From Sphingomicrobium astaxanthinifaciens (GTDB taxonomy: Bacteria; Pseudomonadota; Alphaproteobacteria; Sphingomonadales; Sphingomonadaceae): a stretch of 64,000 nt of DNA. The position numbers and the translations under genes were made by a program. The DNA is taken from NCBI RefSeq assembly GCF_022865105.1, contig NZ_JAKNYM010000001.1:1-64000 (forward strand), given 5' to 3'. Below the pieces are notes generated by a model that saw only the letters and a list, made by a program, of their open reading frames with translations, searched no databases and had not been told where the DNA came from. Positions 38,679-55,224 of this stretch are shown in pieces (within the stretch, counting starts at the first letter, position 1; each line of letters starts with the position of its first letter).

Positions 38679-41600
38679 CCGGCGGCCGAATAGGCCAGCC
38701 GCGGTCCCTCGTTGATGGCCGCCGAGAGCTTGACCTTGTCCTCGCCGAGCTGGCGCTGGAGGCGGTCGGCGAGGTCGGGATCGAGCCTGTACTCGCGCCC
38801 GAGCAGCAACATGGCCTCGCGCCCGTCGGCGACCCTCACCGTGACATAGACCGCGCCGCGATCGCCCGTCGTCAGCGCCTGCGCGAGCAGCGCCGCCTGC
38901 GCGGCATCGGTCAGCGTGACGTCGAGCCGCAGGCGGTTGTTGGTTTCCAGTTTGGAGAAGGGCTTGAACGCCTTGACCGTGACGCGGACCTCCTCCTCGC
39001 CCTCGCGGCGGTCGAGCTCGGCGGTGATCAGCCCGGGCTCGCCCGACTTGGCGGCCTCCTCGATCGCGGCCGAGGCTTCCTCGTCGAAGCACATCGAGGT
39101 GAACTGCCCCGAGGGGTCGGACAGCGTCATCATGAGGTAGCGCCGCCCGCGCTGCGAGGTGCGCCAGCGCGCCTCCTCGACGAGCCCCGCCATGCGTACG
39201 TTGGCGCGGCTGCCGGGCTCGACCTTGAGGCCGGCAAGCTCGGCGTGCCGCTTGACCTTGTGCGCGGCGAGCAGGTGCGCATGCGCCTCGACGGGGTGCG
39301 AGGAGAAATAGAATCCGAAGGCATCGCGCTCGGCGTTCATCCGCTCGGCGAGGTTCCACTCGGCGTGCGGCAGCCGGATCGCGGCGACCTCGGGCTCGGC
39401 ATCGGCGCCGCCGAACAGCCCCCCCTGCCCGCTCTCGCGCTCGCCCGCCGCCTGCTGCGCGTGCTTGAGGATGGTCTCGGCGCCGGCATGGACGCTGGCG
39501 CGGTCATCGTTGAGCGCATCGAAACTGCCCGCGCTTGCGAGCGCCTCCAATTGGCGGCGGTTGAGGAGCCGCGGGTCGATGCGGCCGGCGAAATCCTCGA
39601 GGCTCTCGAACTTGCCATTGGCGTCGCGCTCTTGCGTGAGCTGCTCCATCGCCTTCTCGCCCACGCCCTTCAAGGCGCCGAGGGCATAGCGAACCTTGCC
39701 GTCCTGGACGTCGAATTCGGCCATCGCCTCGTTGATCGCGGGCGGGGTGACATCGATGCCCGAGCGGCGGCAATCGTCGACGAACAGCGCGAGCTTGTCG
39801 GTCAGGTTCATGTCGTAGGTCATCGAGGCGGCGTAGAATTCGGCCGGGTGATGCACCTTGAGCCAGGCGGTGTGATAGGCGACCAGCGCGTAAGCGGCGG
39901 CGTGCGATTTGTTGAAGCCGTAGCCAGCGAACTTGTCGATGATGTCGAACAATTCGTTGGCCTTGGCGGCCGAGATGTCGTTCTTCGCGGCGCCCTCGAC
40001 GAAGCGGGCGCGCTGCTTGTCCATCTCGGCCTGGATCTTCTTGCCCATCGCGCGGCGAAGCAGGTCGGCGTCGCCGAGGCTGTAGCCGGCGAGCACCTGC
40101 GCGGCCTGCATCACCTGTTCCTGGTAGACGAAGATGCCGTAGGTCTCGGCCAGCACGTCCTTCAGGAGCGGGTGCGGATATTCGATCTCGGCGCGCCCGT
40201 TCTTGCGGTCGCCGAACAGCGGGATGTTGTCCATCGGCCCCGGGCGATAGAGCGAAACGAGTGCGATGATGTCGCCGAAATTGGTCGGGCGGACGGCGGC
40301 GAGCGTGCGCCGCATGCCCTCCGATTCGAGCTGGAACACCCCGACCGTGTCGCCCCGCTGGAGCAGCTTGTAGACTTCCTCGTCGTCCCACGGGAGGGTG
40401 GAATAGTCGACCTCGACGCCCTTCTTGGCGCACAGCCGCGCGCCTTCCTTGAGCACCGACAGCGTCTTGAGCCCGAGGAAGTCGAATTTGACGAGCCCGG
40501 CCTGCTCGACATGCTTCATGTCGAACTGGGTCACCGGCATGTCCGAGCGCGGGTCGCGGTAGAGCGGGACGAGGCGATCGAGCGGGCGATCGCCGATGAC
40601 GACGCCCGCGGCGTGGGTTGAGGAGTGGCGCGGCAGCCCCTCGAGCTTGGTCGCGAGGTCGAACAGGCGCTTGACGTCGCTGTCCGATTTGACCTCGGCG
40701 GCCAGCTCGCTGACCCCGTTGAGCGCGCGCTTCAGGTCCCACGGGTCGGCAGGCAGGTTGGGCACCAGCTTGGCGAGCCGGTCGATCTGCCCATAGGGCA
40801 TCTGCAGGACCCGCCCCGTGTCCTTGAGCACCGCGCGCGCCTTCAGCCGCCCGAAGGTGATGATCTGCGCCACCTTGTCGCGCCCGTATTTCTGCTGGAC
40901 GTAGGCGATCACCTTGTCGCGGTGGGTTTCGCAGAAATCGATGTCGAAGTCGGGCATCGACACGCGTTCGGGGTTGAGGAAGCGTTCGAACAGCAGCTTC
41001 AATTCGAGCGGGTCGAGGTCGGTGATGAGCAACGCCCAGGCCACCGCCGAGCCCGCGCCCGAACCGCGCCCCGGCCCCACCGGGATGTCGTTGTCCTTGG
41101 CCCATTGGATGAAGTCGGCAACGATCAGGAAGTAGCCCGAAAAGCCCATGTTGGCGATGATGTCGAGCTCGTAGTCGAGCCGCTTCACATAGGGCTCGCG
41201 CCAGCCCTCGGGCTGGGGCCCGCGCACCGCCTCGATGGCCTCGAGCCGCGCGGTGAGGCCGTCGTGCGCGGCCTTGCGCAGCGCCTCGTCCTCGTCGTGG
41301 CTCATCTTGGGCAGGATCGGGCGGCGGGTGGGAGCGGCGACCGCGCAGCGCTGCGCGATCACGCCGGCATTGGCGAGCGCCTCGGGCAGGTCGGCGAACA
41401 GTTCGGCCATCGTCGCGGCGGGCTTGAGCCACGCCTCGGGCGAGGAGGTCGGGCGGTCGGGATTGTCGACCTGCGAGGAGTTGGCGATGCACAGCATCGC
41501 GTCGTGCGCGGCGTGGAAGTCGGGGGTGTCATATTGCGCCGGGTTGGTCGCGACGATCGGCCAGTCGCGCGCATAGGCAAGCTCGAGGAGCTTCTCTTCG

Positions 41601-42142
41601 GCCGCCTGCTCGATCGGGTCGCCGCGGCGCGACAGCTCGATATAGAAGCGCCCCTCAAACAGGCTCGACAGCTGGTCGGCGAGCGCCTTGGCCTTGTCGT
41701 CCTGTCCCTCTGCGAAGAGGCGGGCGATCCCCCCTTCCCCGCCCCCCGACAGCGCGATCAGCCCCTCGGTCCGCTCGGCGAGCAGTTCGAAGGTGACATG
41801 CGCATCCTGTTCGACCGGGCGGTCGAGGTGCGCGGCCGAGACCAGGCGGCACAGGTTGTCGTAGCCCGCCTCGTCCTGCGCGAACAGCGGCAGCCAGTCG
41901 ATCGTCCCCGCGGGCCCCAGCCCCTCGGGACGCAAGACCGCGAGCAGCGTGCCGATGACCGGCTGGACCCCCGCATCCATCGCCGCCTTCGAAAAGCCCA
42001 TCGCCGCATAGAGGCCGTTGCGATCGCACAGCCCCGCCGCGGGGAAACCGAGCGCCTTGGCCCGGGCAGCCAGATCCTTGGGTTCGATCGCGCCCTCGAG
42101 CATGGTGAAACTCGAGAAGTTGCGCAGCGGGACATAGACCAT
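38675..42142 (-). CDS. dnaE: DNA polymerase III subunit alpha
   Basis: The replicative polymerase, 1155 residues. An N-terminal PHP domain is followed by the C-family polymerase core with PGRGSGAGSAVAWAL, SMPDFDIDFCETHRDKVIAY (catalytic aspartates near 398-400), helix-hairpin-helix and OB-fold regions (RANVRMAGLVEEARWRTSQR). The PHP metal sites are degenerate: VPLRNFSSFTML replaces the HxHS motif and LCDRNGL the TDH motif, so phosphoesterase activity is unlikely. ATG 42142 is chosen because VYVPLRNFSSFTMLEGA is the family N-terminus. Confidence 0.96.
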   Translation of the reverse strand: MVYVPLRNFSSFTMLEGAIEPKDLAARAKALGFPAAGLCDRNGLYAAMGFSKAAMDAGVQPVIGTLLAVLRPEGLGPAGTIDWLPLFAQDEAGYDNLCRLVSAAHLDRPVEQDAHVTFELLAERTEGLIALSGGGEGGIARLFAEGQDDKAKALADQLSSLFEGRFYIELSRRGDPIEQAAEEKLLELAYARDWPIVATNPAQYDTPDFHAAHDAMLCIANSSQVDNPDRPTSSPEAWLKPAATMAELFADLPEALANAGVIAQRCAVAAPTRRPILPKMSHDEDEALRKAAHDGLTARLEAIEAVRGPQPEGWREPYVKRLDYELDIIANMGFSGYFLIVADFIQWAKDNDIPVGPGRGSGAGSAVAWALLITDLDPLELKLLFERFLNPERVSMPDFDIDFCETHRDKVIAYVQQKYGRDKVAQIITFGRLKARAVLKDTGRVLQMPYGQIDRLAKLVPNLPADPWDLKRALNGVSELAAEVKSDSDVKRLFDLATKLEGLPRHSSTHAAGVVIGDRPLDRLVPLYRDPRSDMPVTQFDMKHVEQAGLVKFDFLGLKTLSVLKEGARLCAKKGVEVDYSTLPWDDEEVYKLLQRGDTVGVFQLESEGMRRTLAAVRPTNFGDIIALVSLYRPGPMDNIPLFGDRKNGRAEIEYPHPLLKDVLAETYGIFVYQEQVMQAAQVLAGYSLGDADLLRRAMGKKIQAEMDKQRARFVEGAAKNDISAAKANELFDIIDKFAGYGFNKSHAAAYALVAYHTAWLKVHHPAEFYAASMTYDMNLTDKLALFVDDCRRSGIDVTPPAINEAMAEFDVQDGKVRYALGALKGVGEKAMEQLTQERDANGKFESLEDFAGRIDPRLLNRRQLEALASAGSFDALNDDRASVHAGAETILKHAQQAAGERESGQGGLFGGADAEPEVAAIRLPHAEWNLAERMNAERDAFGFYFSSHPVEAHAHLLAAHKVKRHAELAGLKVEPGSRANVRMAGLVEEARWRTSQRGRRYLMMTLSDPSGQFTSMCFDEEASAAIEEAAKSGEPGLITAELDRREGEEEVRVTVKAFKPFSKLETNNRLRLDVTLTDAAQAALLAQALTTGDRGAVYVTVRVADGREAMLLLGREYRLDPDLADRLQRQLGEDKVKLSAAINEGPRLAYSAAG

Positions 42143-42202
42143 CGCCGCACTATGCCGAAGAGGGCCGCGCGCGCCAAGCGGGGCCGCCGCGCTTATCCAC
42201 AA

Positions 42203-42721
42203 CTAATTGCGGGGGCGGTAGGTCAGGTCGTAGCCGCTGGTATAGCTGGCCCCGTGGTCGGTGCTGATCTCGCCCAGCTGGCGCACCGACCCGTCGTCCT
42301 GCCGCAGGAAGCTCATCCGCACGAAGCGATGCTGCCCCGGACCGCCATAATCGGCCCACCAGCCGGTCATCACCATGTCGCCCGAGGCGTCGGGGCCGCC
42401 GACGAAATCCACGGTCTCGCCGTTGGCGCCGATCCAGCGCTGGTGCCAGCGCCCGTCGGCGCGCAGGCTGTTGAGGCTGCCGCCCCCCTTGCCCGTCAGC
42501 GGCATCCAGTTCTCGCGCACCGCGCACCCGCCGTAGAGCCGCTCGATCCGGCTGTCGGCGATCTTCTGCTCCGGCCGGGCGGTGGCGTACACCTCCCATT
42601 CGCCGAGCCAATAGTCGAAGGCGGCGTGCGCCTCGCTCGCGCAAGGTTGCGGGGGCGGCGGCGGCGATGCGGGCGGTGCCCCTTCCTGCCAGATCAAGAG
42701 CAGCGCGAGCATCATCCCCAT
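42203..42721 (-). CDS. Hypothetical DUF1579-like protein
   Basis: A 172-residue protein. The N-terminus is hydrophobic (GMMLALLLIWQEGAPP) and may be a signal peptide, followed by a proline run. Then comes HAAFDYWLGEWEVYATARPE with ADSRIERLYGGCAVRENW, a pattern shared by small DUF1579-type lipocalin-like proteins. It has two conserved-looking cysteines. The function is unknown. It lies 11 bp after lolD on the same strand, so it may belong to the proS-lolC-lolD operon. Confidence 0.7.
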   Translation of the reverse strand: MGMMLALLLIWQEGAPPASPPPPPQPCASEAHAAFDYWLGEWEVYATARPEQKIADSRIERLYGGCAVRENWMPLTGKGGGSLNSLRADGRWHQRWIGANGETVDFVGGPDASGDMVMTGWWADYGGPGQHRFVRMSFLRQDDGSVRQLGEISTDHGASYTSGYDLTYRPRN

Positions 42722-42732
42722 CGTCCGTCTCC

Positions 42733-43422
42733 CTAGAAGGTCAGTCCCGGTCCCAGCTTGCCGTCGTGCAACCGTACCACGCGGTCCATCCGCGCCGCCA
42801 GCGCCTCGTTATGGGTGGCCACCAGCGCCGCCGAGCCTTCGGCGCGGGTGAGCTCGAGGAAGGCCGCGAAGACGCGCTCGCTGGTCGCCTCGTCAAGGTT
42901 GCCGGTGGGCTCGTCGGCGAGGATCAGCGGCGGGCGGTTGGCCAGCGCGCGCGCCACCGCGACGCGCTGCTGCTCGCCCCCCGACAGCCTGGACGGGCGA
43001 TGGTCGAGCCGCTCGCCGAGCCCGAGGCGCTCGAGCAGTTCGCGGGTGCGCGCCTCGGCGTCGGCGCGGCTGGCGCCGCGGATGAGCTGGGGGAGGATGA
43101 CGTTCTCGGCCGCGTCGAAATCGGGCAGCAGGTGGTGGAACTGGTAGACGAATCCGAGCGTGTCGCGGCGCATCGCGGTGCGCCGCGACTGCGACAGCCG
43201 CGACACTTCCTGCCCGTTGAGCCGGATCGAGCCGCGAAACCCGCCCTCGAGCAGCCCGACCGCCTGCAGCAGCGTCGACTTGCCCGCCCCCGAGGGGCCG
43301 AGCAGCCCGACGATCTCCCCCGGCTCGATCACGAGGTCGACCCCGCGCAGGACGTGGATGGTGACATCGCCCTGCGTGAAGCTGCGTTGCAGGTCGGTGG
43401 TCTGGAGGACGGGGTTACTCAT
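42733..43422 (-). CDS. lolD: Lipoprotein-releasing ABC transporter ATP-binding protein LolD
   Basis: The ATPase of the complex that releases lipoproteins from the inner membrane to the chaperone LolA. The 229 residues have Walker [10 protein letters not shown] (42-50), the MacB/LolD-type [18 protein letters not shown], signature [15 protein letters not shown] and Walker [13 protein letters not shown]. Its ATG overlaps the lolC stop by 8 bp, which shows direct coupling with the permease. Confidence 0.93.
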
Positions 43423-44665
43423 ATCGCAGCACCTCGACGGGATCGGTCGCCGCCGCCTTGCGCGCGGGGAACAGGGTGGCAAGGAAGACCAGCACGATCG
43501 TCACCAGGATGATCGCGGCCACCTCGAACGGGTCGGTCTTCGAGGGCAGTTCGGAGAGGAAGCGGACGCTGGGATCCCACAGCTCGGCGCCCGACACGAG
43601 CTGGATGAAGTCGACCACCGCCTGGCGGAAGAAGAGGAAGATCGCGGCGAGGATCGCCCCGAAGATGATCCCGACCAGCCCGATGATCAGCCCCACGCTC
43701 ATGAAGATTCGCGTCATCCCCGCGCGGCTCGCGCCCATGGTCCGCAGGATCGCGATGTCGCGCCGCTTGGCGCGCACCAGCATGATCAACGAGGAGGCGA
43801 TGTTGAACGCGGCCACGAGGATGATGATCGACAGCACGACGAACATCACCACGCGTTCGACCTCGAGCGCCTCGAACAGCGCCGAATTCATCTGCCGCCA
43901 GTCGACCAGCACCCCCTTGCCGTTGATGACCGGGCGGAGCGGGGCGAGGATCGCCTCGACCCGGTCGGGCTCGCTCACCTCGACTTCGACCATCGCCACC
44001 GCATCGCCGAGCATCAGGAGCGTCTGCGCATCCTCGATCGGCATGACGACGAAGGCCTTGTCGTAATCATAGACCCCGACCTCGAAGATCGCGGCGACCC
44101 GATAGGTGACGATGCGCGGCACCGTGCCCACCGGGGTGGGGCGCCCGTCGGGGCTGATCAGCGAGATTTCCGCCCCCGGATAGGCGCCGAGCGCGTTAGC
44201 GAGGCGAGCGCCGATCGCGACATTGTTGCTGCCGGGCGACAGCTCGGCGATGCTGCCCGCGGTGATATTCTGGGTGATGAGCGGGTTGGAGCGAATGTCA
44301 TCGAGGCGAACCCCGCGCAGGAGGATGCCTTCGACGCGCCCGTTGGACGAGGCCATCAGCGGCTGTTCGATCAGCGGGGTCGCCTCGACCACCCCGGGGA
44401 TCGCGCGCGCCTCGTCGGCGATCGCGCGCCAGTCGTCGAGCCGCCCGTCGTAGCCCTGCACGATGGCATGGCCGTTGAGCCCGACGATGCGGTCGAACAG
44501 GTCGGCGCGAAAGCCGTTCATGACGCTCATCACGCTGATCAGCGCGAACACCCCGAGCGCCACCGCCACGACCGAGAAGCCCGCGACCAGGAAGATGAAG
44601 CCCTCGCCCTTGTGCGGCAAGAGGTAGCGGCGAGCGATCATGCGCTCATGGGCGGACAGGATCAT
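43415..44665 (-). CDS. lolC: Lipoprotein-releasing ABC transporter permease (LolC/LolE family)
   Basis: A 416-residue inner-membrane permease. A first transmembrane helix ([20 protein letters not shown]) is followed by the start of a large periplasmic domain with [20 protein letters not shown]. Three helices follow at the C-terminus, with [20 protein letters not shown], the coupling region that contacts LolD. It ends in [11 protein letters not shown], the usual family end. As in many alphaproteobacteria a single LolC/E gene is present. It overlaps proS as ATGA. Confidence 0.93.
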
Positions 44666-45981
44666 GCGGAAAGCTTGGCGATGGCGTCCTCGATGGTCAA
44701 TTGCTCGCGCTCCCCGCTCTTGCGGTTCTTGACCTCGACCACGCCGTCCTTGAGCCCCCGCGGGCCGATCACCACCTGCCAGGGCAGCCCCATCAGGTCC
44801 ATCCCCCCGAGCTTGACCCCGCCGCGCTCGTCGCGGTCGTCGTAGAGCGCCTCGACCCCCGCCTCGCCGAGCGCGGCATAGATCCTCTCGGCGGCAGCCA
44901 CCGTGTCCGCGTCGTCGGCGCGCATCGTCACGATCCCGACCTTGTAGGGCGCGACCGCCTCGGGCCAGACGATGCCATTGTCGTCGTGGCTCGCCTCGAT
45001 GATCGCGCCGACGAGCCGGCTGACGCCGATCCCGTAGCTGCCCATGTGCGGCACCAGCATGGTGCCATCGGGGCCCGAGACCTTGAGCCCCATCGCCTCC
45101 GAATATCGGATGCCGAAATAAAAGATGTGCCCGACCTCGATCCCGCGCCCGGTCCGCTGGCGTTCGGCGGGCACCGCGTCCCAGTAGCGCTCCTCGTGGG
45201 TCTCGTCGGTGCGGGCATAGACGCCGGTCGCCTCGCGGAACAGCGCCTCGAGCGCCTCGGCATCGTCGTAGGACAGCCCCTCGCGCTCTAGGTCGACCTC
45301 CTCGATCTTGCCGTCGTAGAAGACCTCGCTCTCGCCCGAGGGGGCGAGGACCACGAACTCGTGGCTCAGCTTGCCGCCGATCGGGCCGCTGTCGGCCTGC
45401 ATCGGTACCGCCCTGATCCCCATCCGCCGGAAGGTGCGCAGGTAGGCGAGCAGCTGGCGGTAATAGCTGATCTTGGCGCCCGCCTCGTCGAGATCGAAGC
45501 TGTAGGCGTCCTTCATTAGGAACTCGCGACCGCGCATCACCCCGAAGCGGGGACGCACCTCGTCGCGGAACTTCCACTGGATGTGGTAGAGCATCCGCGG
45601 CAGCTCGCGGTAGCTCTTGACGTCGTCGCGAAAGAGCGCGGTGACCATGTCCTCGTTGGTCGGGCCGTAGAGCATCTCGCGCCCGTGGCGGTCGTTGATG
45701 CGGAGCATCTCGGGGCCGTAGGCGTCGTAGCGGCCGCTTTCCTTCCACAGGTCGGCGGGCTGGATCGTGGGCATCAGGATTTCCTGCCCGACCCGGTCCT
45801 GCTCCTCGCGCACGATCTGCTCGATCTTGCGCAGCACGCGGTTGCCGAGCGGGAGCCACGCGTAGATCCCGCTCGAGGTCTGGCGGATGAGCCCGGCCTG
45901 CAACATCAGCTTGTGGCTGGCGACTTCGGCCCCGGCGGGGCTTTCCTTGAGGACGGGGAGAAAGGATTGGGAGAGGCGCAC
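44662..45981 (-). CDS. proS: Proline--tRNA ligase (short alphaproteobacterial form)
   Basis: Charges tRNA-Pro. The 439-residue class II synthetase has [57 protein letters not shown], the motif 3 region [20 protein letters not shown], and the anticodon-binding C-terminal domain. It lacks the inserted editing domain of the E. coli enzyme (about 570 residues), as is normal in alphaproteobacteria. It leads the proS-lolC-lolD operon. Confidence 0.96.
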
Positions 45982-46054
45982 GGCGACGGGTCTTTCTGTG
46001 ATGGGTCGGCATCGCTCTAGGGGGGCGGCGAGCGCTTTTCAATCGCACGATGCA

Positions 46055-46240
46055 GCGTGGCGTGGTTACAACAACCTCGGGCAAACTGATGCAGGAACGA
46101 CATTGGGGGGTGACAGAAGCGCCGCCGGGGGCCTAGCCAATGGAGGTCGGTTCGAACTCGCTCTTCCGATCGGCACACGGGGGCTGACGAGCAATCGTCA
46201 CGCAAGGACGCCCGGGCACTCCACTGCCCGGGCGTTTTTC
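46055..46240 (+). ncRNA. Candidate structured small RNA or riboswitch leader, terminator-ended
   Basis: Several stems are visible on the plus strand: GGTT/AACC (46064-46067 with 46073-46076), CATTGG/CCAATG (46101-46106 with 46137-46142), a 6-bp hairpin TGACGA-GCAA-TCGTCA with a GNRA tetraloop (46185-46200), and a perfect 11-bp terminator with T-run (46208-46239). It lies upstream of the DUF1622 gene, so it is either a stand-alone sRNA or a leader that ends transcription conditionally. I cannot assign a family. The 5' end is estimated. Confidence 0.45.
46208..46239 (+). terminator. Rho-independent terminator
   Basis: ACGCCCGGGCA (46208-46218) pairs perfectly with TGCCCGGGCGT (46225-46235) around a 6-nt loop and is followed by TTTT (46236-46239). 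It lies 54 bp before the DUF1622 start. Confidence 0.85.
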
Positions 46241-46292
46241 GTCGGGGCCGCCGCGATGCAACCCGGCGCGCGCGCGCCGCGTTCGGGGCGGG

Positions 46293-46661
46293 ATGCAATG
46301 GGACCTCCTCTTCATAATGCTGGCCGAGGCGATCGAGGTGCTCGGCGTGGCGGTGATCTGTGGCGGCATCCTCGTCGCCGCCTTCTTCTTCGTGCGGCGC
46401 ACGCTGCGCGAGGGGGCGACCCGGCAGGCCTATGAAGCGCTGCGCGCCGACCTTGGCCGCGGCATCCTGCTCGGGCTCGAACTGCTGGTCGCCGCCGACA
46501 TCATCTTCACGATCACCGCGCCGCTCAGCTTCCGTTCGGTCGGGCTGCTCGGGCTCGTCATCCTGATCCGCACCTTCCTGTCGTTCAGCCTCGAAACTGA
46601 GATCACGGGGGTGGTGCCGTGGCGCCGCGGCGCCGCAAGCGACGAGCGATCGGTGCGCTGA
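46293..46661 (+). CDS. DUF1622 domain-containing membrane protein
   Basis: A 122-residue membrane protein of the DUF1622 family, function unknown. Hydrophobic segments appear at about 7-30 (FIMLAEAIEVLGVAVICGGI), 52-76 and 80-95. The family core is GRGILLGLELLVAADIIFTI followed by VGLLGLVILIRTFLSFSLET with E-I near the end. It starts 54 bp after the strong terminator and ends 82 bp before the 89-residue gene of the YcaO-TfuA cluster. A link to that cluster is possible but not shown. Confidence 0.85.
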   Translation: MQWDLLFIMLAEAIEVLGVAVICGGILVAAFFFVRRTLREGATRQAYEALRADLGRGILLGLELLVAADIIFTITAPLSFRSVGLLGLVILIRTFLSFSLETEITGVVPWRRGAASDERSVR

Positions 46662-46743
46662 AAAGGCCGACCTTTGTGGCTAACCGCGGGCTCATAAAGC
46701 TGATACAGTCCCCGACTGCGAGCGACAGCAACAGGGGAAACAC

Positions 46744-47013
46744 ATGGTCCAGGAACAGGAAAAACCGAAGAAGAAGACGTTCGTCATCCTCGTCGACGGG
46801 GTCTTCTACATGACCGACGGCAAGCTCTTGACCTACGACAAGAAGGCCGCCGGCGCCGAGCCCGACCCGGTCAAGCGCAAGGAAAAGGAAGAGGGGGTCG
46901 AGAAGGTCAAGAAGAAGTTCCAGGAGGAGGTCGTCAGCGACCATACCGCCTATGTCGCGGTCGGGTTCGATGATCCCCACTTCAAGCCCGTCAATACCGG
47001 CGAGAGCGCCTAG
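46744..47013 (+). CDS. Hypothetical 89-residue protein, candidate substrate of the YcaO-TfuA pair
   Basis: A small protein that I do not recognise. The N-terminal part has a short hydrophobic strand (KTFVILVDGVFYMTDGKLLT), the middle (residues 40-63) is very rich in Lys and Glu, and the end reads TAYVAVGFDDPHFKPVNTGE. There is no cysteine. ATG 46744 follows CAACAGGGGAAAC, a good binding site. The stop is only 12 bp from the ycaO start, so it is almost certainly in the same operon. Size and position fit a RiPP precursor, but it lacks known leader motifs, so it might instead be a partner protein. Confidence 0.65.
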   Translation: MVQEQEKPKKKTFVILVDGVFYMTDGKLLTYDKKAAGAEPDPVKRKEKEEGVEKVKKKFQEEVVSDHTAYVAVGFDDPHFKPVNTGESA

Positions 47014-47025
47014 CCCCGCCCGCGC

Positions 47026-48153
47026 ATGACCTACCCGATCGACCGGCAGCGCGCCGCCGATGCGGGCGCGCTGCTCGGTGCGGCGCGCCGGGCGGCCGCG
47101 CTTGCCGGGGTGACCCGGCTCGCCGACATCACCCGGCTCGACCGGATCGGCCTGCCCGTCTGGCAGGCCGTGCGCCCCGCCTCGCGCGCGCTCTCGGTCC
47201 ACCAGGGCAAGGGCGCCAGCATCGCGGCGGCGCAGCTCGGCGCGCTGCTCGAGGCGGTCGAGAGCGACGCCGCCGAGCGGTTCGATGCCCCGACCATCGC
47301 GGCGAGCTGGCGCGCGCTCGCGCCGCGTCAACGCGTCCGCCAGCTCGCCGATTTCGGGCATGATCGTGCGCGCCCGCCCGCGCCCGACAGGGCGGGGCGC
47401 TGGCTGCCCGCCGAGCGGATCGAGGGCGGCACGCTGCTGGTGCCCTTCGAATGCGTCTCGCTCGATTTCACCCGTCTCATCGGCACCCCGTTCGAACGCG
47501 CCAGCGCCGGGCTGGCGACCGGCTGGGGCCGCGAGGAGGCGCAGCGCTCGGCGCTGCACGAATTGATCGAACGCGATGCCTTCGCCGCCTTCGAGGCGGC
47601 CGATTTCAGCACCCGGCTCGGCTGCGAGATCCGCCCCGAGAGCATCGCGGCGGACTGGTTCGCGGCCTTAAGGGAGGTGCTCGAGGCGATCGGCGCGCGG
47701 TTGCGGCTGTTCCACTTTCCCAGCCTGACCGGGACCCCCGTCATCGGTGCCTCGATCGAGCAGGACGACCGGGGCGCGCGGCCCTATCATGCGATCGTCG
47801 GGCACGCCGCCCATCCCGAGCCCGAGCAGGCGCTGTTCCAGGCGATCGCCGAGGCGGCCCAGGGGCGCCTCACCTACATCGCCGGCGCGCGCGACGATTG
47901 CTACCCGTGGCACTATCGCGAGGGCACCGCGGCCATCGCCGCGCTGGCGCCGCCGCCGGTGGTCGGGATCGACGGGATGGACTTTGCCCAAATCCCTCCC
48001 GGCCCGCGCGATCTTGCCACGCTGGCGGCGCGGCTCGCGGCCAAGGGGTTCGACGAGCTGGCCTTCCTCCCGATCAAGCAGGTCGAGGGGTTCGCGATCG
48101 AGCGAGCCTTCGCGCCGGGGCTCGGCAGCCTCGCTAAGGCGCGACGCGCATGA
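47026..48153 (+). CDS. YcaO-like family protein
   Basis: A 375-residue YcaO-domain enzyme, a family that uses ATP to activate peptide amide bonds for heterocycle, amidine or thioamide formation. The ATP/Mg sites are visible: SVHQGKGASIAAAQLGALLE (GKG at 61-63, Glu76) and GLATGWGREEAQRSALHELI with ERD (residues 182-184). There is no fused E1-like or flavin domain and no separate dehydrogenase nearby, which argues against an azole pathway. It is followed, with an ATGA overlap, by a TfuA-like gene, the partner found with thioamide-forming YcaO proteins. The product chemistry is inferred. Confidence 0.88.
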   Translation: MTYPIDRQRAADAGALLGAARRAAALAGVTRLADITRLDRIGLPVWQAVRPASRALSVHQGKGASIAAAQLGALLEAVESDAAERFDAPTIAASWRALAPRQRVRQLADFGHDRARPPAPDRAGRWLPAERIEGGTLLVPFECVSLDFTRLIGTPFERASAGLATGWGREEAQRSALHELIERDAFAAFEAADFSTRLGCEIRPESIAADWFAALREVLEAIGARLRLFHFPSLTGTPVIGASIEQDDRGARPYHAIVGHAAHPEPEQALFQAIAEAAQGRLTYIAGARDDCYPWHYREGTAAIAALAPPPVVGIDGMDFAQIPPGPRDLATLAARLAAKGFDELAFLPIKQVEGFAIERAFAPGLGSLAKARRA

Positions 48154-48854
48154 TCGTCTTCGCCGGCCCCTCGCTCGCGCCCGCCGACCGGGAAGGCTGG
48201 CCGGCGATCGACTGGCGCCCCCCCGCGATGGCCGGCGACCTGATCGGGCTGGTCGAGCGCGCGCCCGCCAAGGTGCTGCTGCTCGACGGGCTGTTCGACA
48301 CGGTGGCGGCGGTCATGCACAAGGAAGCGCTCGCGCTGATGGCCGCGGGGACGCGGCTCTACGGTGCCGCGAGCATGGGCGCGCTGCGCGCGGCCGAACT
48401 CGCGCCCTTCGGGATGCGCCCGCTCGGGCGGATCGCGGCCGCCTATCGCTCAGGGCTTCTGGTCGGCGATGACGAGGTCGCGCTGGTGCACGGCGATGCG
48501 CGGCTCGGCTGGCGTCCGGCCAGCGTGCCGATGGTCGAGGTCCGCGCCACGCTGGTCGCCGCGGTGCGCGCGCGGCGGCTCGACGCGCCGACCGCGCGCC
48601 GCCTGCGCGCCGCCTTCCATGCCATCCATTATGTCGATCGAGAATGGCCGGTGATGCGGCGGGCCGCCGCCGCGATCGCGCCCGAGGCGATGCCCGCGCT
48701 CGAACGGCGCCACCTGCGGCTCAAGCAGGTCGATGCCCGCCACGCGGTCGCCGCCGCGCTGGCCGACGAGACCCCCGCGCCCGTCGCGCCGCCGCCGCCG
48801 CCGCCGACGCTGTTCCTCGAGCGGCTGCGCGAGGGGCTCGCTAGGCGTCGGTGA
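48150..48854 (+). CDS. TfuA-like protein
   Basis: A 234-residue TfuA-family protein, named after trifolitoxin biosynthesis and known as the partner of YcaO in thioamidation. Family blocks are FAGPSL (4-9), the loop VLLLDGLFDTVAAVMHKEAL (HKE at 57-59), YGAASMGALRAAEL (71-84) and GDDEVALVHGDARLGW (106-121). The C-terminus has a run of six prolines before TLFLERLREGL. The ATG overlaps the ycaO stop (ATGA). It converges with the winged-helix regulator gene and overlaps it by 14 bp. Confidence 0.9.
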   Translation: MIVFAGPSLAPADREGWPAIDWRPPAMAGDLIGLVERAPAKVLLLDGLFDTVAAVMHKEALALMAAGTRLYGAASMGALRAAELAPFGMRPLGRIAAAYRSGLLVGDDEVALVHGDARLGWRPASVPMVEVRATLVAAVRARRLDAPTARRLRAAFHAIHYVDREWPVMRRAAAAIAPEAMPALERRHLRLKQVDARHAVAAALADETPAPVAPPPPPPTLFLERLREGLARRR

Positions 48855-50448
48855 GCGCCGCGGTCACCAGCTCGACATAGGGCTTGCCGGCATCGTCGCG
48901 GAACGGGTGGTGGAACCGGAACCAGGCGACGATTTCCTCGTCGCTCGGGGGGATCGGGCGGTGCCAGCCCTCGTGAACCCGCGTCTTCCAGCGCGCGACC
49001 GCCTTGCGCCCACGCTTGGCGTCCTTGTCCCACGCGGTCACCGCGCTGCACAATTGCGACCAGAGCGAGGCCATCGTCACCCGCGCGAAATATTTGCGCG
49101 CGCCGTCCATGTCGCCCTCGAGCAGCGCCAGCCGCCCGAGGTCTTCCTGGCTGTTGTCATCGGCGAAGGGCTGGATCCCGTCGGACTGTTCGAACAGTGC
49201 GCGCGCGCGTTCGAAGTCGCCGAGATAGGTCAGCCCCGTCGCCACCTCGTTGAGCCGGTCGGGGTTGAACGGGTTGCGCTTGAGCGCATGTTCAAAGCAG
49301 CTCAGCGCCTGGTCGAATTCGGCGTGGTAGAGGTGGCAGAAGCCGAGCACCGTATAGGCGTGGACGTGGCTGCGATCGGCGGCCAGCCCGGCCTTCGCCA
49401 GCTCGAGCGCGCGCTTGCGCTCGACCGGACCCGAGGCGCCGAGCGCGTTGTACCCGTAATCGATGTTGTAGAGCCGCACGAGCGGCGGATAGGCGAGCGC
49501 GAAATCGGGCTTTTCGGCGACGATCGCCTCGAGCTTGCGCGCCGCATCCTCGGCCGTGGCGCGATCCTGCGCCTCGACGCTTAGTCGCTTGGCCGCGAGG
49601 TAACGGTCGAACAGCGTGCCGGTGGTGCCGCCGATCCCGATCGAGATGTCCTGGTCGAGCGCGGGCAGCACGGCGGCGACGATCTGGCGCACGATCGCCT
49701 CGACCCCTGCGCCGACCCCCTCGTCCTCGATCAGCATCATCTCGGCCCAGACGATGCCGCCGTCCTGCGCGCGCTGCAGCCGGACATTGGCCTTCGAGCC
49801 CTGCGGCGCGGGCAGGAAGTTGACATCGAGCCGATAGTCGCGCCGCCGCGCTGGACCCGGGTCCATATGCTTGGCATCGACCGCCTGGATCTCGCGAAAC
49901 CGCGACAGGCCGAGCAGCACTTCCTCGCGCATCGAGGCGCCGATATAGGGGTGCCGCTTGGCGACCGCCTCGTCGCTGAAATCGCCCACCGCGATGCGCG
50001 GCGGGCGTCCCGCCTCGAGCCCCTTGACCTCGGCATCGGCACGCGTCTGGGTCCGCGCCGGGACGGGGGGCGGCGCGGGCGCGCCGTCGCGCACGACCGC
50101 CATGTCCTCGCGCGCGGCGGCCTCGTGCCGGACGTCGGCGACGAGCCGGTAGCCGCGGCCATAGACGCTCTCGATATAGCGCGGGTGGCGGGGATCATCG
50201 CCGAGCGCGCGGCGCAATTCGCGGATCGTCGTGGTCAGCGCCGATTCGGACACCGCCATCCCGTCCCAAACCGTCTCGAACAAGGCGTCCTTGGTCAGCA
50301 GGCGCCCCTCGCGCTCGGCCAGCGCGCACAACACGCGGAACGCCTTGTTGCCCAGCTTGACCGGACCGCTCGGCCCCGTGACGCGCTCGTCACCGGGGTC
50401 GATCCGATATTCGCCGATCGCGATCGTGGGACGTGGCCCCGCAGTCAT
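48841..50448 (-). CDS. Winged-helix (OmpR/CadC-type) transcriptional regulator with TPR region
   Basis: A 535-residue regulator. Residues 8-105 form an OmpR-type winged helix (GNKAFRVLCALAEREGRLLT, SALTTTIRELRRALGDDPRH, IESVYGRGYRLVADV). The central part resembles the adenylate-cyclase-like or TolB-N-type module often found in this group (VGDFSDEAVAKRHPYIGASM). From about 270 there are TPR-like helices (AKAGLAADRSHVHAYTVLGF, CFEHALKRNPFNPDRLNEVA). No transmembrane helix is evident. A 25-bp palindrome lies 56 bp upstream of its start. It is convergent with tfuA. Targets are unknown. Confidence 0.85.
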   Translation of the reverse strand: MTAGPRPTIAIGEYRIDPGDERVTGPSGPVKLGNKAFRVLCALAEREGRLLTKDALFETVWDGMAVSESALTTTIRELRRALGDDPRHPRYIESVYGRGYRLVADVRHEAAAREDMAVVRDGAPAPPPVPARTQTRADAEVKGLEAGRPPRIAVGDFSDEAVAKRHPYIGASMREEVLLGLSRFREIQAVDAKHMDPGPARRRDYRLDVNFLPAPQGSKANVRLQRAQDGGIVWAEMMLIEDEGVGAGVEAIVRQIVAAVLPALDQDISIGIGGTTGTLFDRYLAAKRLSVEAQDRATAEDAARKLEAIVAEKPDFALAYPPLVRLYNIDYGYNALGASGPVERKRALELAKAGLAADRSHVHAYTVLGFCHLYHAEFDQALSCFEHALKRNPFNPDRLNEVATGLTYLGDFERARALFEQSDGIQPFADDNSQEDLGRLALLEGDMDGARKYFARVTMASLWSQLCSAVTAWDKDAKRGRKAVARWKTRVHEGWHRPIPPSDEEIVAWFRFHHPFRDDAGKPYVELVTAALTDA

Positions 50449-50503
50449 TGGTTAACGATTCCCCCGAGCAAAGACCGTTTCTTAGAGCGTTCCGCCAACT
50501 CTG

Positions 50504-50528
50504 AAAAGATTCTGAGTCAGATTCTTTT
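50504..50528. promoter_or_regulatory. 25-bp palindrome, likely operator
   Basis: The site is symmetric around 50516: left arm AAAAGATTCTGA, centre G, right arm TCAGATTCTTTT. Eleven of twelve positions pair. It lies in the region between the winged-helix regulator (start 50448, minus) and the 39-residue gene (start 50632, plus). The one-base centre argues for a DNA-binding dimer site rather than an RNA hairpin. Confidence 0.6.
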
Positions 50529-50631
50529 GGCGACCCGCTCAAGAAGTCGGCTGCCCGACACCCTAGAAGGAAATGGTCGAGACCGAGCCGGCACCCGGCC
50601 CCCGGATCGAGACAGAAAAGGGAGACGCGAC

Positions 50632-50751
50632 ATGTTCAACCAAGCCTTCATCGGCCTTCTCGCCATCGTTCTGACCGCCAGCACCTTCGGCGGCACCATC
50701 AGCCTCATGGGCGCCCAGCCGCCCGCCGCGCAGGACGTGCTCGTTGCGTGA
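50632..50751 (+). CDS. Hypothetical 39-residue hydrophobic peptide
   Basis: An unrecognised peptide. Residues 5-27 are hydrophobic (AFIGLLAIVLTASTFGGTIS), followed by a short tail QPPAAQDVLVA, so it could be a membrane peptide or a signal-type small protein. ATG 50632 follows AAAAGGGAGACGCGAC, a good binding site. It is divergent from the winged-helix/TPR regulator, with the 25-bp palindrome in between, and is followed by a hairpin and a GNAT gene. Confidence 0.6.
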   Translation: MFNQAFIGLLAIVLTASTFGGTISLMGAQPPAAQDVLVA

Positions 50752-50761
50752 GCCGGACCGG

Positions 50762-50795
50762 AGCGGACGAGCCCCGTTTTCCCGGTTCGTCCGCT
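50762..50795 (+). other. Hairpin between the 39-residue gene and the GNAT gene
   Basis: AGCGGACGA (50762-50770) pairs with TCGTCCGCT (50787-50795). No T-run follows, so it may be an mRNA processing or stability element, or a weak terminator. Confidence 0.45.
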
Positions 50796-50825
50796 TCGAC
50801 TGACCGACAGTGAAGGAGCCGAACG

Positions 50826-51455
50826 ATGTTCGACACCCAAGAGATCAACGAGGCCGTCGAGGGCAAGGTGAGCCACATGCTCGCCCATGCCGCGATGCGC
50901 GACATCTCAAAGGATGTCGCCAAGGACCTCATCTTCGCCGAATGTTTCGTCGAGACCGAGCGGCTGCAATTGCGCCCCGTCACGATCGATGACCTTCCCG
51001 CCTATGCGGCGATGCTCGCCGACCCCGACGCCTTCACCTACTCGGACCGCGGCCCGATGGGCTCCGACGAGGCCTTCACCCGGCTGTGCAGGCAGGTCGG
51101 TCACTGGACGCTGCTCGACTATGGCCTGTTCGCGGTGTTCGAGAAATTTACGGGTCACTTCGTCGGCGAAGTGGGGTTCGGCAACTTCAACCGCGAGATC
51201 GGGTCCGGCTTCGACGGCCATCCCGAGGCGTGCTGGACCATCCGCAAGCCCTTCCAAGGCAAGGGCTATGCGCATGAGGCCGCGCTGGCCGCGCTGCAAT
51301 TCACCGAGGACCGCCTGATCGCCACCCGGACCGTGGCGATGATCCACCACAAGAACATGGCCTCGATCCATATCGCCCGCAAGCTGGGGTTCCGCGCCTA
51401 TGACGAGCGCATCTACCGCGGCTATCGGGCCATCCTCTTCGCGCGCGAATATTAG
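50826..51455 (+). CDS. GNAT family N-acetyltransferase
   Basis: A 209-residue protein of the RimJ/RimL acetyltransferase type. After an N-terminal helical extension of about 42 residues (MFDTQEINEAVEGKVSHMLA), the domain begins with FVETERLQLRPVTIDDLPAY. It continues with FVGEVGFGNFNREIGSGFDG and the acetyl-CoA loop WTIRKPFQGKGYAHEAALAA, ending with NMASIHIARKLGFRAYDERI. The substrate is unknown. AAGGAG precedes the ATG. It is followed by a terminator at 51501-51533. Confidence 0.88.
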   Translation: MFDTQEINEAVEGKVSHMLAHAAMRDISKDVAKDLIFAECFVETERLQLRPVTIDDLPAYAAMLADPDAFTYSDRGPMGSDEAFTRLCRQVGHWTLLDYGLFAVFEKFTGHFVGEVGFGNFNREIGSGFDGHPEACWTIRKPFQGKGYAHEAALAALQFTEDRLIATRTVAMIHHKNMASIHIARKLGFRAYDERIYRGYRAILFAREY

Positions 51456-51500
51456 GAGGCAACCGCTCGCAGCTTCCTGTTCGGGCGCGAAGAACGGGGG

Positions 51501-51533
51501 TGGGGCAGCTCTGGGTGAGGGCTGCCCCATTTT
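51501..51533 (+). terminator. Rho-independent terminator after the GNAT gene
   Basis: TGGGGCAGC (51501-51509) pairs perfectly with GCTGCCCCA (51521-51529), 11-nt loop, followed by TTTT (51530-51533). It ends the plus-strand transcript before the convergent proA gene. Confidence 0.82.
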
Positions 51534-51644
51534 CGTGACCGAAGACGATTGGCGGGCGCACCCTTCGCCTTGGCGATGGCGTCAGTCCCGACATCGCAGC
51601 CGGGGCCCTTCCTGGTCGGTATGGCGAACGCCTATGCCGAACGC

Positions 51645-52925
51645 CTAGGCCGGACGCGTCTGCCCGTCGCCATGGACGCGGTAGTGGAAGCTGCACAATT
51701 GCTCGAGCCCGACGGGGCCGCGCGCGTGCATCTTGCCGGTGGCGATGCCGATCTCGGCGCCCATGCCGAACTCGCCGCCGTCCGAAAATTGCGTCGAGGC
51801 ATTGTGCATCACGACCGCGCTGTCGACCCGGGTCAGAAAGGCCGTTGCCGCTTGATCGTCCTCGGTCAGGATCGCATCGGTGTGACCGGAGTGATGCGCC
51901 GAGACGAAGTCGATCGCTTCATCGAGGTCGCCGACCACCTTCACCGACAGGATATTGTCGAGATATTCGGTGTCCCAGTCGGCCTCGCTCGCAGGCGCAA
52001 TGCCGGGGAGGATACGTTGTGCTTCCTCGTCGCCGCGCAATTCGCAGTCCCCGAGCGCCTCGCGCAGCTTGGGCAAGAATTCCGTCGCAATGTCGCGGTC
52101 GACGACGAGGCTTTCGGTTGCACCGCAGACCCCGAGGCGGCGTTGCTTGGCATTCTGCACGACGCGCACGGCCTTCTCGAGATCGGCGGCCGCATGAACG
52201 TAACTGTGGCAGTTGCCGTCGAGGTGGAGCAGCGTCGGCACCTTGGCCTGGTCGCGCACCCGCTCGACCAGCGACTTGCCGCCGCGCGGGATGATGAGGT
52301 CGATCTTGCCGACCGCCTCGAGCATGGCGCCGACCGCGGCGCGGTCGGTGGTGCCGACCACCTGGACCGCCTCTCTGGGCAGCCCCGCCGCGGCCAGGCC
52401 CTGCGCGATCGCGGCGTTGATCTCGCGCGCGCTGTGCTGGCTGTCCGATCCACCGCGCAGGATCACCGCATTGCCGCTCTTGAGACAGAGCGCGCTGGCG
52501 TCGGCACCGACGTTGGGGCGCGATTCGTAAATCATGCCGATCACCCCGATCGGCACCGCGACCCGCTCGATCCGGAGCCCGTTGGGGCGGTCGAAGCGGG
52601 CCAGCACGCGCCCCACCGGGTCGTCGAGATCGGCGACCGTGCGCATGCCCTCGGCCATCGCGTCGATGCGATCGGCGTCGAGCGCGAGACGGTCGATGAA
52701 GGCCTCGTTCTTCCCGGCATTGCGGGCATTGTCGACATCGCGGGCATTGGCGCGCAGGATCGCGTCGCGGCGCTCGACGAGCGCATCGGCGCCCTCGCGA
52801 ATGGCGCGGTTCTTTTCCTCGGTGGTCGCGGTGGCGAGACGCGCGGCGGCGCGCTTGGCGCGGCGCGCCAGCTCGCCGACATAGGTGGTGGGATTGGTCG
52901 GCTCGATATCGGCCATGTCTGTCAT
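51645..52925 (-). CDS. proA: Glutamate-5-semialdehyde dehydrogenase (gamma-glutamyl phosphate reductase)
   Basis: Second step of proline synthesis from glutamate: NADPH reduction of gamma-glutamyl phosphate. The 426 residues carry the aldehyde dehydrogenase fold with [57 protein letters not shown] and the catalytic cysteine in [15 protein letters not shown]. It follows proC on the same strand, 44 bp away; the kinase gene proB is divergent about 1.1 kb upstream. Confidence 0.96.
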
Positions 52926-52969
52926 TCTCCGTATTCTAAACCTGTCGGAAGTGGTCGTGAAGGCGCGCG

Positions 52970-53749
52970 TCAGCGCAGCTCGACCGCACGATCGAAGGCG
53001 GCATCGACCGTGTCCTCGAGCAGCCCCCGCACCCCGCGATCGCGGCGCAGCACGGTCAGCCCGGCGTCGGTCGTGCCGCCGGGGCTGGTCACGTCGTCGC
53101 GCAGCTGTTCGAGCGAGCGCGCGTCGCGCCGCGCCAGTTCGCCCGCGCCGGCCACGGTCTCGACCGCGATCTGGCGCGCCTCGATGGGGGTGAACCCCCG
53201 TTCCTCGGCGATCTGCTGGAGCGCGCGCATGATCTCGAACACATAGCCCGGCCCCGAGCCGGCGAGCGCGGTGAACATGTCGATCCGCGCCTCGTCTTCG
53301 ATCCAGGCGATCTCTCCCGTCGCCGAGACGAGCTTACCGACGAGGACCTTCTGGGTGGCGGTCACCCCGTCCTGCGCGAACAGCGCGCTCATCCCCTGCC
53401 CGCAGGCCGCGGGGAGGTTGGGCATCACTCGCGCCACCGGCACCTTGCCGAGCAGGCGCGAGACGCGCTCCGCCGGCACGCCCGCCGCGATCGACAACGC
53501 GAAGGCGCCGGGTCGCAGCAGCCGCGCATAGGGCGGCAGCACGTCTTCCATCATCTGCGGCTTCACCGCGACGATGAGCGCGTCATATTTCTCGCCCTTC
53601 AGCGCCTCGATCGAGCGCACGTGGCGGATGCGGTTGGGGGTGTCGACATCGGCGGGATCGACGACCGTGATCGCGGGCATCTCGCCCCCCGTCCAGCGCG
53701 ACAGCATCGCCCCGCCCATCTTGCCGCAGCCCGCCATCAGGATCTTCAT
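52970..53749 (-). CDS. proC: Pyrroline-5-carboxylate reductase
   Basis: Last step of proline synthesis. The 259 residues begin with the NAD(P)H-binding [18 protein letters not shown]. They show the conserved [40 protein letters not shown], the C-terminal [20 protein letters not shown] and [16 protein letters not shown]. It sits upstream of proA on the same strand, so proC-proA are probably co-transcribed. Confidence 0.95.
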
Positions 53750-53884
53750 CGCTCGTCATCCTCCCCCGCAACCGATGTTGCGTATCGTTCTCGTTTCAAC
53801 TTCTCCCTTACAGTAAAGGCCAAAATCATAGGTTTCAACCGCAGCCGACGGTGAAATGGAGCGAGTGAAGTCAATCAAAGTCGT

Positions 53885-53926
53885 GATGTAAAATTTTCAC
53901 ATCCCGACTTACTATCTATTACATCA
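53885..53926. promoter_or_regulatory. Palindromes in the AT-rich region upstream of proB
   Basis: A 19-bp palindrome lies at 53885-53903 (arms GATGT...ACATC, AT-rich centre, 8 of 9 pairs). In addition TGATGTAA (53884-53891) is repeated in inverted form as TTACATCA (53919-53926). The region is between the divergent proC and proB genes, so it could be a shared operator. The promoter cannot be fixed; TTGTTC (53931) with GATACG (53953) is one option for proB. Confidence 0.4.
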
Positions 53927-54028
53927 GGACTTGTTCGCGTGATAGGTTACTTGATACGCCTCGCAGGGCCCTTTGAAATTGGTGCGGAGATCATCTAACT
54001 TTCCGGCAAATGGAATTTGGAGGGTTTC

Positions 54029-55186
54029 TTGAGCAAGAACAAGCGTATCGTCATCAAGGTCGGCAGCGGGCTCGTCGTCAGCGAGGAGACGCGCGCGCCG
54101 CGGTTCGCCTTCCTGCACGGGCTCATGGCCGATATCGCCGAGCTTCGCGCCAAAGGTCATGAGGTCGTGCTGACCTCGTCGGGCGCGGCGGCGATCGGGC
54201 TCGACATGATCGGGATCGAACCGGCGGACGCAGGGCTGCAGGACAAGCAGGCCGCCGCCGCCTGCGGCCAACCGCTGATCATCAACGCCTACAAGCAGGT
54301 CGCGCTCGAGTTCGGGATCGGGATCGCGCAGGTGCTCCTCACCTCGGAGGAGATGGAGAACCGTCGCCGCTACCTCAACACCAAGAACACGATCGAGCGC
54401 CTGCTCAAGAACGGCATCCTGCCGATCGTCAACGAGAATGACACGGTGACGACCAAGGAGATCCGGGTCGGCGACAACGATCGGCTCGCCGCCAAGGTCG
54501 CGCAGATGATCCATGCCGAGGAATTCGTGATGCTGACCGACATCGACGGGCTCTACGATCGCCCGCCGCACGAGCCGGGCGCGCGCTTCGTTCCCGAAGT
54601 CACCGATGTCGCCGACTTCCTCGATGCCACCACCGGCAAGGGGCTGCTCGGGTCGGGCGGCATGCTGACCAAGATGCAGGCGGCCAACATGGCGCAGAAT
54701 GCGGGCGCCAGCGCGCGCATCGCCGAGGGGATCATCGAGGCCCCGATCAGCTCGGTGCTGTCGGGCCGGCGCCGCCACACCCACTGCCTCGCACATGGCG
54801 ACCCGCAGTCGGCCTGGCGCGTCTGGCTCACCGACCGGCTGCAGATGGCGGGCAGCGTGACGGTGACCGCCGCCGCCGCCGCGGGGCTGCGCGCGGGCAC
54901 GCAGGGGATCGGCACCGCCGACCTCGTGGCCACCAGCGGCGAATATCAGAAGGGCGACGTGCTCCACGTCTATGACGAGCAGGGCACCGAGATCGGTCGC
55001 GGGCTGACCAATTTCTCGTCCAACGAAACCATGCTGCTGGTGCGCTGCAGCGAGGAGGAAGTGAGCGACGTGCTCGGCTACGACAGCCATTCGGACATCA
55101 TCGCCGACCGCGACTTCGCGCTGCTCGGCGAGCACAACCTGTCATGGGACCGACCCGCCGAAAGCGAACTGGCCAGCATGGGTTGA
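54029..55186 (+). CDS. proB: Glutamate 5-kinase
   Basis: First step of proline synthesis: ATP-dependent phosphorylation of glutamate. The 385 residues have the amino acid kinase domain (RIVIKVGSGLVVSEETRAPR, EVVLTSSGAAAIGLDMI, PIVNENDTVTTKEIRVGDND, SGGMLTKMQAANMAQNAGA). A C-terminal PUA domain begins at about residue 280. I chose TTG 54029, with GGAGGG just upstream, although TTG 54017 is also open. It is divergent from proC-proA, so control by the region between them is likely. Confidence 0.93.
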   Translation: MSKNKRIVIKVGSGLVVSEETRAPRFAFLHGLMADIAELRAKGHEVVLTSSGAAAIGLDMIGIEPADAGLQDKQAAAACGQPLIINAYKQVALEFGIGIAQVLLTSEEMENRRRYLNTKNTIERLLKNGILPIVNENDTVTTKEIRVGDNDRLAAKVAQMIHAEEFVMLTDIDGLYDRPPHEPGARFVPEVTDVADFLDATTGKGLLGSGGMLTKMQAANMAQNAGASARIAEGIIEAPISSVLSGRRRHTHCLAHGDPQSAWRVWLTDRLQMAGSVTVTAAAAAGLRAGTQGIGTADLVATSGEYQKGDVLHVYDEQGTEIGRGLTNFSSNETMLLVRCSEEEVSDVLGYDSHSDIIADRDFALLGEHNLSWDRPAESELASMG

Positions 55187-55224
55187 GCGCGGCGGGCGCG
55201 TCCAGGGTTACGCGGTCACCGCGT

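Follow-up and report, generated by a model that had tools for sequence, protein, structure and literature searches.

What does the YcaO-TfuA pair of a sphingomonad act on, and is the small protein encoded directly ahead of it the substrate? The question is raised by the first 64,000 nucleotides of contig NZ_JAKNYM010000001.1 of Sphingomicrobium astaxanthinifaciens (this whole stretch is called the window), in which positions 46744-48854 of the plus strand form one tight operon for an 89-residue protein, a YcaO protein and a TfuA protein. By comparison of sequences, YcaO-TfuA almost certainly have the small protein as their partner and most likely as their substrate. The operon is probably a compact cassette similar to those that make ribosomally synthesized and post-translationally modified peptides (RiPPs), in which a leader would guide thioamidation of the backbone close to the C-terminal N-T of the 89-residue precursor. 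Its parts are the following.

46744-47013, plus strand: precursor-like small protein, 89 residues, ATG start, no Cys; homologues found only with ycaO-tfuA
46780-46842, plus strand: conserved N-terminal leader block of the small protein, residues 13-33, from the alignment and predicted β-strands
46942-47010, plus strand: variable C-terminal tail and putative core, residues 67-89, HTAYVAVGFDDPHFKPVNTGESA, with N84-T85-G86
47026-48153, plus strand: YcaO, 375 residues, Pfam PF02624; closest solved relative MJ1094
48150-48854, plus strand: TfuA, 234 residues, Pfam PF07812; solved relative 6xp8

The small-protein gene is separated from ycaO by 12 bp (47014-47025), and ycaO and tfuA overlap in an ATGA at 48150. 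These open reading frame (ORF) coordinates agree with the preliminary description of this DNA, which had reported three linked plus-strand genes with this spacing; the Lys/Glu-rich middle and the lack of Cys that it ascribed to the small protein are also seen in the 89-residue ORF. The order of the three genes, judged by homologues, is kept in all nine loci known in the genus, so that the operon is not a chance arrangement, and ycaO and tfuA are adjacent in each of them. The genome itself contains a single YcaO match. A promoter scan found none, terminators were at chance level, and no tRNA genes are present in 40000-56000. In five loci of the family (L159, L160, L161, L162 and L163) YcaO and TfuA occupy a single ORF, an apparent fusion that supports the two proteins acting together.

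The YcaO protein matches PF02624 with E 1e-39 and 137.2 bits (cut-off 25.7), and TfuA matches PF07812 with E 3.2e-36 and 124.2 bits (cut-off 30). The alignment of YcaO to M. jannaschii MJ1094, a protein of solved structure which we take to be a thioamide-forming YcaO, runs through the segments GKGA, ElIERDA and aEaaQgRl, presumably the ATP motifs of YcaO. In the second list of matches behind MJ1094 as closest relative most rows cover residues 99-469, and the precursor part is barely tested there. The best NCBIfam matches of YcaO and TfuA are two equivalog models of McrA-glycine thioamidation, TIGR03266 and NF033432, both below cut-off (124 vs 365 and 131.1 vs 235.2). The methanogen McrA system is thus similar in its best solved relative and best models; it differs in these scores and in having a large enzyme as its substrate. 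The EcYcaO type, which thioamidates uL16, is more distant: its model NF040716 (named YcaO_for_S12) gives 10.9 against a cut-off of 700, and in the cassette a TfuA gene is adjacent. Judged by family, thioamidation by YcaO-TfuA is the likely reaction. No Pfam match to a RiPP recognition element (RRE) was found among the cassette proteins. A ThiS-like sulfur carrier was sought in the window only, among short ORFs ending in GG; three were listed and none looked gene-like by eye. A tblastn search with TfuA matched 353 of 72,556 plasmid records, mostly of Rhizobium and Sinorhizobium, and four of these cover 80% of TfuA. Two members of the genus, G007 (C6:19160-20221) and G016 (C1:539399-540460), have a different YcaO, and a homologue of the window's TfuA was not found in either genome.

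Oxazolines and thiazolines were the first known products of YcaO proteins (PMC6511847; this and the other papers cited are drawn on in part), and the putative core described below has a recurring Thr. By cyclodehydration YcaO might turn this conserved residue into a methyloxazoline (-18 Da) rather than form a thioamide. This is very improbable, however. TfuA is present in every family locus fetched, although by construction of the set. The azoline-type SagD model TIGR03604 is not reached (72.1 against 219.25), and the McrA-thioamide model scores higher, although it is also below its cut-off. Finally, neither a cyclodehydratase-partner nor a dehydrogenase gene is found among the neighbouring ORF clusters of at least two genera, of which one example each was read.

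The small protein belongs to no Pfam or NCBIfam family at E 1 or better. Its homologues occur in four of 61 genomes of relatives (own genome included), the same four that carry a TfuA homologue, and in nine of 71 genomes of the genus, always beside ycaO-tfuA. In the family, TfuA was found in 30 of 397 genomes and in 16 of 96 genera. The 26 TfuA loci outside the genus and the nine within it make up a set of 35 loci, most of which have one or more small ORFs ahead of ycaO. One of the 26, L155, stops at a contig end, and another, L165, is decayed: its precursor, ycaO and tfuA matches (L165:4886-6990) are spread across several overlapping frames, and the regulator described below was not found there. 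A profile of the nine genus proteins was run on six-frame ORFs of at least 40 codons in 59 loci, 35 of the family and 24 from elsewhere in the class. Its first round reached eight ORFs from other genera, and iteration brought the set to 25 ORFs in 24 loci, none of them among the 24 class loci. All 25 ORFs are on the ycaO strand and are positioned upstream of ycaO or overlap the start of its reading frame.

A 21-protein profile run on whole genomes at E 0.01 matched 20 of the 397 family genomes, at 21 places. The matched genomes are 20 of the 30 that carry TfuA, and there are no matches in the 367 genomes without TfuA. Matches among the carriers are expected because the carriers gave most of the profile rows; the fresh information is that the 367 others have none. 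The Fisher P of this co-occurrence, ~1e-26, is overstated through the training rows and the relatedness of the genomes. The co-occurrence beside YcaO-TfuA in other sphingomonads that the preliminary description proposed to look for is therefore found, all 20 matched genomes carrying TfuA, and the pattern it had named as contrary, homologues mostly away from the pair, does not appear in whole genomes. In one genome, G144, the match is near the start of one contig and TfuA at the end of another, which fits a broken assembly. A scan of the genome collection with the small protein gave one locus, in the metagenome-assembled genome Sphingomonas sp. isolate SS_bin_122, the same contig as G001.

The small protein was at first described as having no known leader motif, but comparison across sphingomonad genera reveals one: its first third is conserved as FxIxxGxxYYxTxxxLxYD. 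The mean identity between group representatives is 0.40 in the leader (residues 13-33), 0.19 in the middle and 0.16 in the tail (91 pairs), values that lean on one alignment with 14 of the 15 representatives (L146b is absent from it). A conserved leader with a variable tail fits a precursor, and a linked short precursor of this layout, with a putative core, is what characterizes a YcaO-TfuA RiPP cluster. Cys is absent from 20 of the 22 small proteins compared. Structure prediction places β-strands between residues 12 and 31, followed by a helix from about 42 to 60; modelled alone, the protein has a pLDDT of 52.4 and a pTM of 0.39, with no PDB match at E 0.001 (best E 3.6).

The tail mostly finishes with an N/Q-T pair, as in VNTG, VQTG, FQQTW, YQQTG, AQTNP, VQTQP and FAQTDPP. 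The pair [NQ]T, first spotted by eye, is present in 11 of the 15 groups; when every two-letter-by-one class was scored over the last 20 residues and the best one kept, one of 500 shuffles came to this count. The preliminary description proposed a search for a conserved C-terminal core; what recurs in the putative core is this pair, on a tail that is otherwise the least conserved part of the protein. Of the 25 profile matches, 22 entered the motif tests; L164 (near-identical to L153), a truncated L146 paralogue and the broken L165 were omitted, and L152 was also omitted from alignment A6 (21 rows). In alignment A5 five precursor-only rows, badly placed by MAFFT in A4, were dropped and one YcaO row was shortened.

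The part of the small protein that is conserved comprises the N-terminal strands and the helix, which would also suit an adaptor, that is, a recognition element that would bring some other substrate to YcaO-TfuA while staying unmodified itself. Locus L146 could be read in this way, because among its three successive precursor-like ORFs (L146:4250-5434) two have the leader, one of them apparently truncated, and adjoin a leaderless ORF with FANTE six times. An adaptor is nevertheless unlikely. Of the clusters formed by the 40-140-codon closed ORFs of the 35 loci, the small protein is the only one with at least three genera that lies off ycaO, tfuA and the regulator, as placed by the coordinates of the members listed. 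An adaptor would have no reason to retain an N/Q-T pair on an otherwise fast-changing tail, and the second leader protein of L146 bears its own FAQTDPP tail.

Elsewhere in the Alphaproteobacteria, TfuA was found in 21 of 385 genomes (own genome included), and the other 20 genomes give the 24 class loci. Several of these have other small ORFs ahead of ycaO. Repeats were seen by eye in the upstream ORFs of L088 (AANFIG five times), L091, L099 and L101; the motifs of this set, AANFIG, DAGRWAITP and GGKQRFA, mark candidate multi-core precursors. The layout agrees with that of the cassette, but judged by sequence kinship to the present family is not demonstrable.

Several observations weigh against a thioamidated precursor of the kind proposed. 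Four of the 15 groups have no [NQ]T pair. Ten of the 30 TfuA carriers have no small protein recognized by the profile; by eye, eight of the ten have a different small ORF before ycaO, and none is evident in L140 and L145. A four-row, genus-only profile gave four matches in the 397 family genomes, all of them genus members. When the profile of the genus alignment was compared with those of five sets of upstream ORFs (1-4 rows) from other alphaproteobacterial YcaO-TfuA loci, no similarity emerged, and a single leader superfamily across the Alphaproteobacteria is therefore not claimed. The leader and the core may be on separate proteins, since the L146 repeat ORF has no leader. Lastly, the rise in confidence of the structural models, a matter of confidence values only, may be due to a deeper alignment.

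The three-gene unit of the preliminary description is too small, because a regulator, and here an acetyltransferase, are co-inherited with the operon. The neighbourhood contains the following.

48841-50448, minus strand: OmpR/CadC-type winged-helix and tetratricopeptide repeat (TPR) regulator, convergent with tfuA, from Pfam and co-inheritance
50826-51455, plus strand: GNAT acetyltransferase, close orthologues limited to cassette carriers within the genus
50632-50751, plus strand: small hydrophobic protein, 39 residues, between regulator and GNAT, recognizable in six of nine genus loci
46293-46661: DUF1622 membrane protein, directly upstream of the operon, in three of nine genus cassette loci
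42733-43482 of the window: ABC ATPase (PF00005), beside proS in six genus loci, from neighbour clustering

The DNA-binding domain of the regulator is of the OmpR type (Trans_reg_C, PF00486, E 2.9e-19), and no strong transmembrane stretch was seen in the protein. The coding ends of tfuA and the regulator overlap by 14 bp here and by 11-26 bp across the nine loci of the genus. Of the remaining 23 loci that have a regulator, 22 show it convergent with tfuA and one has both genes in the same direction. When ORFs of at least 100 codons were clustered to find shared neighbours, the ycaO/tfuA clusters spanned 35 loci and 16 genera and the regulator 32 loci and 14 genera, being missing from L145, L158 and L165. 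The next cluster (20 loci, five genera) is on the opposite strand over the regulator in the members checked and is taken as its antisense shadow, and all remaining clusters comprise at most three genera. Within the genus, only the nine carriers have full-length regulator matches, and the best of the others reaches 36% across some 300 residues. In the class loci a regulator-profile match is present within the fetched stretch in six of 24, possibly only via common winged-helix or TPR sequence.

The GNAT gene follows beyond the regulator in all nine genus loci, and also in L146 at 46%. The cassette versions in carriers are 52-100% identical, whereas no other match, a second copy found in carriers among them, exceeds 38%; some GNAT match is present in 69 of 71 genus genomes. 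The 39-residue hydrophobic protein is doubtful as a member of the cassette. The DUF1622 gene is also found near proS in two of ten genus genomes without the cassette (L177 and L185) and so looks like a neighbour. An empty site beside proS was sought in ten genus genomes without a small-protein match, but proA is not in those stretches, so no cassette boundary is drawn.

No exporter or protease gene is common to most of the 35 loci, in line with the earlier remark that none is adjacent to the operon, although some recur in small subsets. The ABC ATPase is present in eight loci of three genera (the six genus loci, L145 and L148), a DUF885 protein (PF05960) in two loci of two genera, and a β-lactamase-family hydrolase (PF00144), a possible local peptide-processing neighbour, near the cassette in five loci of two genera (L025, L036, L037 and L038 of the genus, and L143). 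The shared cassette thus includes neither an exporter nor a hydrolase, although individual loci may carry one.

This scarcity, and the lack of a strongly hydrophobic segment in the small protein, would also be expected if the whole protein were a standing, uncleaved thioamide protein, as McrA or uL16 are, with the same chemistry and another fate. That fate deserves some weight but is on the improbable side. Ribosomal protein uL16 is highly conserved (PMC13063428), whereas the tail is the least conserved part of the small protein; thiovarsolins need no protease from their cluster (PMC6511847); and the PF00144 hydrolase does occur near some cassettes.

For the favoured interpretation, a thioamidated precursor, the following course is proposed. 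The N-terminal block of strands and helix would be the leader recognized by YcaO, which with ATP would activate a backbone amide within the flexible C-terminal tail. Sulfur is delivered by TfuA together with a thiocarboxylated ThiS-like carrier, and no suspected uL16 enzyme has a TfuA gene nearby (PMC13063428, as far as drawn on). Here TfuA would bring sulfur from a housekeeping carrier, and the thioamide would form at or beside the N/Q-T pair, N84-T85 in this protein. Removal of the leader, if any, would fall to general peptidases. The GNAT dedicated to the cassette in this genus may add an acetyl group to the released peptide or to a partner, and the regulator would control the operon and may sense its product. 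Of the preliminary proposal that the small protein is the substrate, the cognate partnership and the precursor layout are supported by comparison, whereas the thioamide, its site, the recognition of the leader, the source of the sulfur, cleavage, acetylation, the part played by the regulator with its ligand, and the fate of the product are inferred.

The last step invites a wider, speculative suggestion, which we regard as rather unlikely: the thioamidated tail peptide might bind the winged-helix/TPR regulator as its ligand, which would make the cassette a peptide-signalling circuit inside Gram-negative cells. The thioamide would shield this peptide, here perhaps together with acetylation. The regulator stays linked in 14 of the 16 genera as the other neighbours vary; this and the absence of a widely shared exporter are compatible with such a circuit. 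The logic would be that of the RRNPP peptide-sensing regulators, built from unrelated parts and with the backbone-sulfur mark as a password. We take RRNPP proteins to have a TPR domain joined to an Xre-like helix-turn-helix; the cassette regulator also joins TPRs to a DNA-binding domain, but this is of the OmpR type, and the analogy is one of working only.

Among described systems, the thiovarsolin clusters (PMC6511847) are similar in the YcaO-TfuA pair, in a predicted leader with a repeated short core, in the lack of a specific protease and in N-acetylation, proposed to be performed by an acetyltransferase outside the cluster. Unlike the cassette, they are from Streptomyces, have APR/GPR cores and contain heme oxygenase, amidinotransferase and major facilitator superfamily (MFS) genes; the parts of that paper used mention no winged-helix/TPR partner. 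The YcaO-TfuA pair StdGH of the std cluster (PMC13174530, preprint) likewise works at a conserved C-terminal motif, with Asn as the residue thioamidated. This cluster is also from Streptomyces and differs in having the motif SNKEWQE, an RRE-MNIO partner, a fused peptidase/carbamoyltransferase and an MFS permease. Proteobacterial clusters with co-located ycaO, tfuA and short precursor ORFs were surveyed by Malit et al. in 2021 (PMC8120280), when the known YcaO-TfuA thioamidated RiPPs were all from Actinobacteria; 70% of the filtered clusters came from Proteobacteria, and the survey has 797 peptide families, with which the present precursors may overlap. The main text of that paper names no sphingomonad and no TPR protein and contains no word with 'sphing'. 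A literature search, with most subscription papers outside its scope, found nothing on YcaO RiPPs in Sphingomonadaceae and nothing joining TfuA-like, tetratricopeptide and winged helix. TfuA with Sphingomonas gave only work unrelated by title, and TfuA and YcaO with Alphaproteobacteria only work on deadwood. The system, put forward at first as a candidate undescribed one, is so only in part: no sphingomonad appears in that main text, whereas TfuA-type proteobacterial clusters had been surveyed in bulk. As far as searched, the kind of cassette is known, and the precursor family and the regulator partnership, the newest part of the cassette, are new.

The cassette is a minimal Gram-negative case of YcaO-TfuA, consisting of a precursor, YcaO and TfuA. 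It combines a defined leader with a predicted modification site and a co-travelling regulator, and offers a small test bed both for the choice of substrate by a YcaO without a recognizable RRE and for the role that a thioamide peptide may have inside the cell.
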